Source of the DNA: Fictibacillus sp. FJAT-27399 | GTDB taxonomy: Bacteria > Bacillota > Bacilli > Bacillales > Fictibacillaceae | Direction: 5' to 3' | NCBI RefSeq assembly: GCF_001510655.1 | Contig: NZ_LMVC01000009.1 | Span: 1-61,127 of the forward strand | Length of the DNA: 61,127 nt | The notes under the pieces: generated by a model | The model's input: only the letters and a program-made list of their open reading frames with translations | Databases searched by the model: none | What the model was told of the DNA's origin: nothing | Position numbers and translations under genes: made by a program | Shown: positions 12,255-55,845 of the stretch, piece by piece | Layout of the letters: the number at the start of each line of letters is the position of its first letter | How positions within the stretch are numbered: the stretch's first letter is position 1

Positions 12255-12526
12255 TAATTACAGCGACAGCAAGGATGAGGAGAGTAAGTTTGCCATTTTC
12301 CTATCAGAGAGAACCGCCATGGGCTGAGAGCGGTTTATGAAAAGGAAACTGAAATGCACCTCGGAGCCTTTTATCGAACCGATACAGTAGATAAAAGCGG
12401 CCCTCCACGTTACGGAGTACAAGGAGAACAGCAAAAATACGGCGTTATATTCCGTTTTTGCTGTTAAACAGAGTGGAACCGCGCAAAAAGCGTCTCTGTG
12501 CATACGCACAGTGGCGCTTTTTTTGT
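12255..12526 (+). ncRNA. T-box riboswitch, tRNA-Cys responsive
   Basis: The leader shows the T-box order: AGGATGAGGAGAGTAA in stem I, GGGCTGAGAGC, a specifier context AAATGCACCTCGG with TGC as Cys codon, a long stem III (AACAGCAAAAA with TTTTTGCTGTT), the T-box AGAGTGGAACCGCG at 12470-12483, and a terminator (AGCG..CTGTG with CACAG..GCGCT, then T7) ending near 12524. Uncharged tRNA-Cys should stabilise the antiterminator and switch on cysE-cysS. Specifier choice is by eye. Confidence 0.93.
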
Positions 12527-12556
12527 TGGAGCGGGCAGAGCAAGGGCCATGGATAA

Positions 12557-12660
12557 GTTTACTGGCGGAAATGAAGGGTTTACTGTCCGAAAGTGCACAT
12601 TTACTGTCTAAAATGAAAATTTACTGGCGAAAAGCACACGTTTACCGGCCAAATGGGGAT
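12557..12660. repeat. 21-bp periodic array, opposite orientation
   Basis: Units with core (G/A)TTTAC(T/C)G start at 12557, 12578, 12599, 12619 and 12640, spaced 21, 21, 20 and 21 bases. The core is the reverse complement of the GTAAA(C) core in the arrays at 144-185 and 543-668. It lies directly between the T-box terminator and a structured repeat, with no gene. Confidence 0.7.
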
Positions 12661-12680
12661 TACGGTAAACTAGCGGTTCG

Positions 12681-12826
12681 GCAGCTGCAGGAGCTTCAGC
12701 TTTTCTCGATCCAGCTTCAGCAGGCAGGGCCTCGGCCGCTTCACACTCCCACCACAACACAAAAAGCGTGTTGCTGTGTAAGTGTTCCACCGTCTTTCGG
12801 CCCTAAACGCCTGCTTCAGCTTTTCT
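12681..12826 (+). repeat. Structured intergenic element, copy 1
   Basis: AGCAGGC-AGGGCC (12719-12731) pairs with GGCCCT (12799-12804) and GCCTGCT (12809-12815), enclosing a hairpin AACAC-AAAAAGC-GTGTT (12756-12772). The sequence ends GCTTCAGCTTTTC. Related copies are at 17660-17808, 21360-21588 and 55605-55730. It fills the gap between the T-box and cysE, so it should be part of the cysE mRNA after antitermination. Confidence 0.7.
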
Positions 12827-12844
12827 AACTAAGGGGGGATTACA

Positions 12845-17635: not shown

Positions 17636-17638
17636 AAG

Positions 17639-17656
17639 GCCGGCTAGCCGGCTGTT
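17639..17656 (+). terminator. Palindrome after rpmG, possible weak terminator
   Basis: The perfect palindrome GCCGGCTAGCCGGC is followed by TGTTTTC. The hairpin would have almost no loop and the T run is short, so termination is likely partial. Confidence 0.45.
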
Positions 17657-17659
17657 TTC

Positions 17660-17808
17660 AAAGTAAGAAAGGTAAGACTGTGAGGAATTCGGCAGGGCTA
17701 TGTCTAGCTGCAGCGCCCAAGGACGAAAACTAACTTCTTTTTTCGTCACTGGTCCTCGAAGGACGACATTTGAAACTATCTCGTCCCAGATCGCTTGCGC
17801 TTTTCTTA
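17660..17808 (+). repeat. Structured intergenic element, copy 2
   Basis: Contains GTCTAGCTGCAGCGCCC near its start, a stem GACGAAAA/TTTTCGTC, a short hairpin GTCCT-CGA-AGGAC, a stem GGACGA/TCGTCC and the end TCGCTTGCGCTTTTC. It aligns with the first part of the copy at 21360 but lacks the AAAAAGC arm. It lies between rpmG and secE. Confidence 0.65.
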
Positions 17809-20195: not shown

Positions 20196-20214
20196 TGTTA
20201 ATGTTGTAAATAAA

Positions 20215-20350
20215 TATCTATGTCATGCCGTAGACAGCGGGGGCTTAATGCTTAATTATCCTGCCGAGGTGTGTAGCACAGAATAAATCAATTATTGATT
20301 GCTTAATTTCTGACACTACGCCTTCATGTCTAACATGAAGGCTTTTCTTA
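20215..20350 (+). ncRNA. L10 (rplJ) leader with attenuator
   Basis: The segment GCCGTAGACAGCGGG with CCTGCCGAGG (about 20227-20270) matches the conserved L10(L12)4-binding fold of Firmicute rplJ leaders. GCCTTCATG/CATGAAGGC (20320-20342) followed by TTTTCTT is a clear terminator upstream of rplJ. Excess L10 complex should favour termination. Confidence 0.85.
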
Positions 20351-20397
20351 TGGCTACGGTATGAAGATGACTAGACTATTCTACAGGAGGTGTAAGG

Positions 20398-21320: not shown

Positions 21321-21356
21321 TCAAAAAGGGGTTCGCCAACAGGCGGACCTTTTTAT
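21321..21356 (+). terminator. Terminator after rplL
   Basis: GGTTCGCC-AACA-GGCGGACC with flanking A and T runs forms a strong intrinsic terminator. Confidence 0.88.
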
Positions 21357-21359
21357 TTG

Positions 21360-21588
21360 GAAGATAAGAAAGCATGAAAACTATGGAGCATTCGGCGAAG
21401 TATTGTCCAGCTCCATCGCCCAGGGCTGAAAACGTATTTCTTGTTTTCGGCATAAGTCCTCGGAGGACGAATTGAAAAACCACAATTCGTCTTAGGTCGC
21501 TTCACTCTTGCCCCTCAACACAAAAAGCGTGTTGCCGTGCATGAGTTCCAGCGCTTGTCGGACTTAAACAGGGCACTTGCGCTTATCT
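21360..21588 (+). repeat. Structured intergenic element, copy 3 (fullest)
   Basis: Shows all arms of the family: CTGAAAAC/GTTTTCGG, GTCCT-CGG-AGGAC, GACGAATTG/CAATTCGTC and AACAC-AAAAAGC-GTGTT (21517-21533). AAGTCC (21454-21459) can pair with GGACTT (21560-21565), and the sequence ends GGGCACTTGCGCTT. It fills the 330-base gap between rplL and rsmC. Confidence 0.72.
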
Positions 21589-21645
21589 TGAGTAATCTTG
21601 GTCATACTGATAACAGGAATTCCTTTTAAGGAAAGGAAGATGAAC

Positions 21646-50027: not shown

Positions 50028-50075
50028 ATTTGTCCTCAAAAGAGGTCAAATAAAAAAAGAAAGCATCCTGAATCA

Positions 50076-50113
50076 GTGCCAGGCACCTCACTTCACTTTC
50101 AGGTGCCTGGCAC
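50076..50113. repeat. GTGCCAGGCACCT inverted repeat
   Basis: A perfect 13-base inverted repeat (GTGCCAGGCACCT, 50076-50088; AGGTGCCTGGCAC, 50101-50113) around a 12-base loop. Each arm is itself built on the palindrome GTGCC..GGCAC. It belongs to the noncoding gap before ecfA1. Confidence 0.8.
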
Positions 50114-50273
50114 GGAAAAACATCCTGCAAAGGAAGATAAAAGCTGGTCCTGAAAGGGTCAGTACATGTTTTTAAGGTAAGCATTGCTGACTTAAAAGAT
50201 GTTATTTCCGTGATGCAAATCACAAATGTAGTAACGCTTCGATTAGTTACTTAAATATCTGGAGTCAGGCACC

Positions 50274-50300
50274 TGAATGTAAAAAACGGTGCCAGACACC
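50274..50300. repeat. Second GGTGCC/GGCACC inverted repeat
   Basis: GTCAGGCACC and GGTGCCAGAC pair with one mismatch. It is related to the repeat at 50076 and lies 60 bases before ecfA1. The remainder of 50028-50360 shows no gene or clear promoter. Confidence 0.65.
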
Positions 50301-50360
50301 ATTTCAGGAAGTAAAGTGTTTTTTCAAAGAAGTAATAGCTGAGCTGAGGGGGAGAAAAGC

Positions 50361-55604: not shown

Positions 55605-55730
55605 TTTTGATCCGTCCAGCTTCAACTCCTAGAGACCCGTGTACTTCGGTCTTTGTCAGAAAACAAAAAGCGTTTTATGACAAAGCCCTCCAGTGCTTAT
55701 CGTCTCTAAACAGTCGTTTCAGCATCTCTT
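55605..55730 (+). repeat. Structured intergenic element, copy 4
   Basis: TAGAGAC (55630-55636) pairs with GTCTCTA (55702-55708). Inside, CTTTGTCA and TGACAAAG close a stem that continues AAAAC-AAAAAGC-GTTTT (55660-55676). It has the same 3' block TAAACAG as the other copies. A local AGACC/GGTCT pairing could compete with the outer stem. It lies between the DUF421 gene and ybaK. Confidence 0.7.
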
Positions 55731-55845
55731 TTTTCCCATCATTTACGCAGGATGATGCTTTACTCTTTTGCAAAAGATGTAGTTAAGGGTGAACCCATTA
55801 ATTATATAGATATGTAATTGGCGCATCTGCGCGGGAAGAGGAAAA

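Follow-up and report, generated by a model that had tools for sequence, protein, structure and literature searches.

Among the described systems closest to the repeat family analysed here, group IIC introns insert at intrinsic transcription terminators, as set out in PMC4424553. REP sequences and REPINs are hairpins that measure 21-65 nt and have a GT[AG]G foot, and each tnpA-REP pairs with its own REP family (both statements from PMC6006769). SPRITE elements are terminator-like, and BOX, RUP and SPRITE elements cluster, according to PMC10969869. Bacillus genomes contain the dispersed intergenic stem-loop repeats Bhal-1, Bant-1 and bcr1, Bhal-1 being 74 nt long and present in 36 copies (PMC2267715). 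The locus considered here is a stretch of 61,127 nt (the window; contig C13) of the 4.50-Mb genome of Fictibacillus sp. FJAT-27399 (G000, the own genome below). It carries copies of what is very likely a terminator-homing, non-autonomous mobile DNA element that is active or was so recently. Insertion is at the 3' end of the T-tract of an intrinsic terminator, in the orientation of the terminated gene and without target duplication.

A sequence-only reading of the window had proposed four copies, at 12681, 17660, 21360 and 55605, and all four are there, on the plus strand. They are also recovered by a covariance model built from 12 copies of the own genome, three of the four having taken no part in its construction (12672-12828, E 3.2e-14; 17698-17808, E 3.8e-12; 55610-55731, E 1.6e-8; also 21401-21590); the sole contribution of the window to the model was the 21395 copy. 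The stems quoted by that reading are right, both AGGGCC/GGCCCT, AAGTCC/GGACTT and AGAGAC/GTCTCT, and AACAC/GTGTT versus AAAAC/GTTTT. The AAAAAGC hairpin, taken as a common feature, is present in three copies, whereas the 17660 copy lacks this arm. The start given as 21360 lies very close to the true left end, as comparison with empty sites delimits the copy to about 21360-21589, and the start at 17660 is likewise correct. The features are collected in Table 1.

Table 1. Element copies, their parts and their insertion targets in the window.
Feature	Position	Strand	Basis
Intrinsic terminator, hairpin GGTTCGCC/GGCGGACC and T-tract; insertion target of the 21360 copy	21328..21359	+	Sequence
Full-length element copy: 5' leader, multi-arm core, TTATCTT tail	21360..21589	+	Empty-site comparison; model match 21401-21590, 208.5 bits
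Left terminal arm AAGATAAG, complementary to CTTATCTT at 21582-21589	21361..21368	+	Sequence, by eye
P2 5' arm AAGTCC, partner GGACTT at 21560-21565	21454..21459	+	Sequence; covarying helix
Inner hairpin CAACAC-AAAAAGC-GTGTTG	21516..21534	+	Sequence; covarying helix
Terminator hairpin GGCCGGCTAGCCGGC and TGTTTTC; target of the 17660 copy	17638..17659	+	Sequence; hairpin without element in G002-G005
Internally deleted copy: leader, first hairpin, tail; no AAAAAGC arm	17660..17808	+	Model match 17698-17808; clean empty site in G002, G003, G004, G005
Remnant of the 3' end (..AGCTTCAGCTTTTCT) of a preceding unit, directly adjoining the following unit	12681..12706	+	Sequence
Standard unit of about 120 nt, tandem-type subfamily	12708..12826	+	R2 match 12709-12826, E 2.3e-27 in genome
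Standard unit	55610..55731	+	Model match; orthologous site

Besides the outer stem P1, which reads AGCGCC/GGCGCT or a variant of it, the core has P2, P3 and a long arm bearing the AAAAAGC loop. One or two additional hairpins are present in some copies, and standard units are 112-126 nt long. Full-length copies have putative terminal inverted repeats of about 8 bp (TAAGAAAG/CTTTTCTTA; AAGATAAG/CTTATCTT at 21361/21582), identified by eye, which are absent from leader-less copies. Elsewhere in the window, Rfam places a T-box leader (12263-12500) and an L10 leader (20210-20357), both ordinary. Degenerate direct repeats of about 21 nt (GCAAGTAAAC-like and TTTACTGGC-like) form arrays at 137-181, 556-663 and 12555-12653 that apparently belong to another repeat type, and similar TTTACCGGC arrays are found at the 12.6-kb site of G002 and G003.

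The own genome yields 45 blastn matches and 92 rows of the covariance model at E<=1, numbers that are far beyond chance. Of these rows, 79 were used, since 13 overlapped copies already included, one on the same strand and 12 on the opposite one, and removal of one further overlap by script left 78 distinct copies. They are about 40-240 nt long and are full-length, extended by an extra hairpin, internally deleted or devoid of the 5' leader, internally deleted copies of 40-60 nt being common. At E<=1e-4, a model of the standard unit detects the family in 191 of the 249 genomes sampled from the order, which represent 81 of 105 genera. Because no more than 14 candidates were scored per genome, copy numbers in this search are lower bounds. 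In a class-wide draw of 299 genomes, 45 match at E<=1e-6, namely the own genome, 20 further members of its order and 24 genomes from outside that order, which belong to four other families of the class (19 to one of them); the genomes without a match served as the negative control. With one copy as the query, blastn found matches in 18 of 60 relatives. In a pattern scan of named genomes, the matches listed come mainly from Mesobacillus and Bacillus sp., with same-pattern matches also listed in Neobacillus, Metabacillus, Lysinibacillus and Pseudalkalibacillus; judged by this range, the window would be Mesobacillus-like. The 80 named loci used below are among the matches listed and were picked by the family's own pattern, and hence form a biased sample. 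Three loci with the family (L157, L191 and L193) bear the record title Chryseobacterium sp. ISL-80, probably a mislabelled Bacillus genome. Plasmid and phage records contained no blastn match to one 196-nt copy, and 49 stretches of viral contigs with the 19-nt end pattern included one real model match (L093). The latter, at 1-122, is cut by the end of the stretch and represents either a phage-borne copy or host flank. Three copies apparently lie in an rRNA operon spacer (G000:C6:1795396, C12:1-121 and C2:55975-56095; flanks judged by eye), two of them at contig ends. Few intergenic repeats of Bacillus-like bacteria appear to be as common as this element, which is apparently unnamed.

Comparison with relatives revealed many sites at which a copy is missing. 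The 21360 copy has an empty site in all five relatives with both flanks (G001-G005), and the 17660 copy in four (G002-G005), with a 126-nt spacer at this position in G001. At the empty sites of both, the terminator and the downstream gene are in place; indeed, the terminator ahead of the 21360 copy, with a hairpin of -14.9 kcal/mol before the T-run in a terminator scan, is present without the element in G001-G005. The 12681 site has a unit in G001, G003 and G005 and none in G002 and G007, and the 55605 site has two units in G003 and one in G004. Contig C6 of the own genome carries 40 copies. For 18 of them, the two flanking sequences are also found in G005, within a 400-kb stretch that lacks eight of the 18 copies; there the aligned flanks are separated by -2 to 6 nt at six sites and by 20 and 23 nt at two. 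G003 has one tandem unit more than G004 between two genes, which we take to be atpA and atpG.

Identical copies at different sites are found in Bacillus sp. V3-13 (G545), which has 58 matches to one 170-nt copy. Ten copies are identical over 170/170 positions, and two more have one mismatch. All 12 start with AGCTATAGGAAAG and end with GCGCTTTTCTTA, sharing one exact left end. Ten of the 12 are located directly behind a hairpin of <= -6 kcal/mol and a T-run of >=4, with 0-2 nt between, compared with one of 12 in the right-flank control; of the remaining two, one follows a T-run without a strong hairpin and the other has neither by this rule. In none of the 12 are the ends flanked by a 4-, 5- or 6-nt direct repeat, and shorter repeats are seen in few (3 nt in one, 2 nt in three). 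The base to the left of the element is A in nine copies, and that to the right is T in ten. Short, non-coding copies with exact common ends at different sites are in keeping with a MITE or other non-autonomous transposon; the lack of a target site duplication is not. Thus, one of the functions offered in the sequence-only reading, a non-autonomous mobile repeat, is borne out by the empty sites in relatives and by the identical copies in V3-13. Moreover, ten identical copies in one named strain make both the mobilising enzyme and the terminator target directly testable.

The preference for terminators extends to the own genome, where a sense terminator lies within 90 nt upstream of 38 of the 78 copies, versus downstream of two. 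Forty of the 78 have no sense terminator within 90 nt by the rule applied, which counts against terminator homing. Antisense terminator-like hairpins are found upstream of 24 copies, which likewise counts against it, and read in from downstream in seven; these scores arise partly because many terminators are near-palindromic, with A- and T-runs. Leader-type copies have an upstream sense terminator in 29 of 49 cases, tandem-type copies in one of eight and unsorted copies in eight of 21. The nearest upstream ORF points in the same direction in 55 of 78 cases and in the opposite direction in 21. When leader-type copies of the own genome are combined with those of the 80 named loci among the matches listed, a terminator is found upstream of 81 of 129, at a distance between T-run and core that ranges from 0 to >50 nt in these 81. 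In many copies the 5' leader is shortened or missing, and yet they begin right at the T-run, and most 5'-short copies of the own genome retain the 3' end. This end, a stem followed by TTTTCTTA, resembles the target. Head-to-tail units occur in several genera, and in composite copies one unit is nested in or joined to another (L162 3622-3921; L214 6939-7268).

We suggest that the 3' end of the element, the P1 stem followed by GCTTTTCTTA, could pass for the target, a hairpin with TTTTTTA. A single recognition, of hairpin and T-tract with a cut after ..TTA, would then serve both the element's own end and its target, and a new copy landing behind an old one would produce a head-to-tail array. The resemblance of the 3' end to the target would in this way explain the arrays. 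Landing behind terminators would also spare genes, and would give the 3' region a second stem and T-tract.

The same observations bear on a retro-element, in which an RNA ending in a terminator-like tail would be copied by a reverse transcriptase into DNA at T-tracts, incomplete copying leaving 5'-short copies. The type of target is that of group IIC introns (PMC4424553), and both the variable distance between T-run and core in the 81 leader-type copies and the 3' end retained in most 5'-short copies are consistent with such a route. However, no RVT_1 reverse transcriptase was found in G000, G003, G004 or G005, although G000 has copies that G005 lacks, and the identical copies of V3-13 share one exact left end. 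Furthermore, G-U pairs are scarce, as described below, and no group II intron family reached the gathering score in Rfam scans of the window and five loci, or E<=1 in scans of eight loci. We therefore regard a retro-element as unlikely. There is a similarly small chance that the family represents a new kind of mobile element, whose own end and target signal are the same intrinsic terminator and for which termination sites are both homing sites and the seeds of arrays, possibly spread via the terminated transcript by a transcription-coupled or retro-type route without a dedicated IS. If it did spread in this manner, it would be a bacterial counterpart of SINEs.

Covariation was analysed in a set (A2) of 51 diverse standard units, 50 drawn from 72 candidates and one from the window; 21 or so units without the inner hairpin, L048 and two other L154-type arms were left out. 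Double changes are found in 27 of 33 pairs, with 90.8% of cells paired. Both sides differ in 364 cells, versus 27-90 after displacement of the partner by 1-3 columns, and the covariation score was reached by none of 500 shuffles. The claim that stem halves change together is thus upheld by significant covariation. A compensated change is also seen by eye between the 55605 unit (CTTTGTCA/TGACAAAG) and the orthologous unit of G003 (CTTATCA/TGATAAG). Such strong covariation implies that the arms are kept matched. It does not point to RNA, because G-U pairs are infrequent and no more common than A-C: 13 against 43 of 1682 cells in a MAFFT alignment, 47 against 41 of 2197 cells in the model-fitted alignment of a 69-row non-redundant subset, and 79 against 86 with all 142 rows. 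For comparison, G-U accounts for 28 of 347 pairs in 16 tRNAs of the same loci, a yardstick valid for G-U only, since its brackets show allowed pairs only.

Folding energies do not single out a strand either. With DNA energies, all 51 core units fold more stably on the minus strand, and so does the full V3-13 copy, whose plus strand is the more stable with RNA energies (-69.2 vs -65.5). A minus-strand molecule, suggested by the A-C excess of the MAFFT alignment and by the DNA energies of the core units, was considered and dropped, given the 47 G-U against 41 A-C in the larger alignment and a strand preference of the V3-13 copy that depends on the energy set. Collectively, the data point to arms matched at the DNA level, either by a selected single-strand fold or by hairpin-templated correction, rather than via a transcribed RNA. 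Of the earlier proposal that RNA or cruciform structure is selected, the co-varying arms stand, and the RNA part is disfavoured by the scarcity of G-U in both alignments; the sRNA and processing-signal functions found no support.

A structured RNA that multiplied by ordinary duplication under selection for its fold, be it an sRNA family, a processing signal or a 3'-UTR element, would account for strong covariation across a wide host range and for copies that lie mostly downstream of a gene and co-oriented with it. It would not lead one to expect G-U no more frequent than A-C, core units favouring the opposite strand and a V3-13 copy whose preference varies with the energy set, a copy missing at many sites in close relatives, or common internally deleted copies of 40-60 nt, and we consider it very unlikely. 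Indeed, covariation in dispersed palindromes need not signify functional RNA.

As to the enzyme that would move a terminator-homing element, the own genome has one Y1 gene, which is RAYT-like (L260 1290-2109; G000:C7 near 335341). A pair of GGTGCC(A/T)GGCACC palindromes lies on either side of it, making four in all, with no element copy nearby, and the arrangement recurs in part in G005 (L373) and in L431. Y1 loci were sorted by score and eye into 34 RAYT-like and 19 IS200-like, leaving out seven (L420-L423, L437 and L439, and L419, whose twin was counted). The palindrome is near seven of the 34 RAYT-like loci and two of 80 background loci. A RAYT-like gene with such pairs looks like a REPtron of Bacillus-like bacteria, the palindromes probably being the RAYT's own REP partners. 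An inverted pair of the same motif is present in the window (50066-50309).

If the element were REP/BIME-like, its mobiliser would be the single-copy RAYT (TnpA-REP) of most of these genomes. Y1_Tnp is indeed matched in 35 of 40 relatives and in 21 of 25 named genomes that carry the element, the own genome included, but Y1 is so common that its co-occurrence with the element says little. The RAYT of the own genome sits amid the four GGTGCC(A/T)GGCACC palindromes without an element copy, and eight genomes of genus g4 have Y1 and no blastn match, the later model finding copies in several of them. RAYT was rejected as the first-choice mobiliser because its flanks carry a different palindrome, and this route appears quite improbable.

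The mobilising enzyme of the terminator-homing element may be an IS200-like Y1 transposase, though this is somewhat less likely than not; such an HUH/Y1 enzyme might, with low certainty, act in trans on folded single-stranded DNA. IS200-type Y1 elements are found by eye directly behind a hairpin and T-tract at six of 14 loci (L347, L348, L350, L351, L352 and L418). One of the six sits directly behind an element copy, in G022, as a separate insertion, and five behind ordinary terminators; the right end of all six is a hairpin followed by TTTTGATT. This arrangement would fit Y1 enzymes that read such ends as terminators. By contrast, leader-short copies starting at the T-run count against HUH, as exact HUH ends do not predict them, and so does the presence of the element without a Y1 match in G002-G004 and in four of the 25 named genomes, which are drafts. 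Across 60 Y1 loci and 10 RT loci, a copy is nearby only at L350 and L419, which are the same sequence, and V3-13 has five Y1 matches, the best one with stops. No autonomous relative with the same ends occurs in the 80 named loci listed, which include seven shorter than 8 kb or at contig ends, or in the V3-13 loci read. Four spans of >260 nt from a left end to the next right end in the 80 listed loci were evaluated as an autonomous version and rejected; two are composite elements, and the other two are ordinary genes between separate copies (ORFs listed for L205 only).

Whatever its mobiliser, the element bears on how 3' ends, operon gaps and rRNA spacers are annotated. A comparison of the window and loci with 4227 Rfam families gave no match on the element, and a literature search that included six element sequence strings, most subscription journals being outside its reach, found no description; accordingly, no exact match to a characterised repeat family emerged from either source. 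Group IIC introns share insertion at intrinsic terminators, with no target duplication expected, but are larger ribozymes with a reverse transcriptase, whereas the element has 40-250 nt and its own genome no RVT_1. IS200/IS605 elements and PATEs are similar in their hairpins near the ends, lack of duplication and insertion beside a preferred short sequence, and IS200-type elements of related hosts occupy the same kind of site; however, no tnpA was found with the element's ends, and only one IS200 adjoins a copy. REP, BIME and REPIN sequences are likewise dispersed, intergenic, palindromic and present in many copies, whereas the element is 120-230 nt long and multi-arm, has a consensus without the GT[AG]G foot and is not found beside RAYT genes. 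MITEs and the pneumococcal BOX, RUP and SPRITE elements are also short, non-coding, mobile and foldable and, by description, differ in that the element has no target duplication, short and often lost terminal arms and other hosts. Bhal-1, Bant-1 and bcr1 are dispersed intergenic stem-loop repeats as well, and Bhal-1, compared by description only, may equal part of the family. Finally, the head-to-tail folded units recall integron attC arrays. A non-autonomous mobile repeat is a known kind of element. What, as far as we have seen and with Bhal-1 compared by description only, is apparently new to description is that one element homes to terminators, has an end imitating its target and is built of multi-arm units that stack upon themselves.
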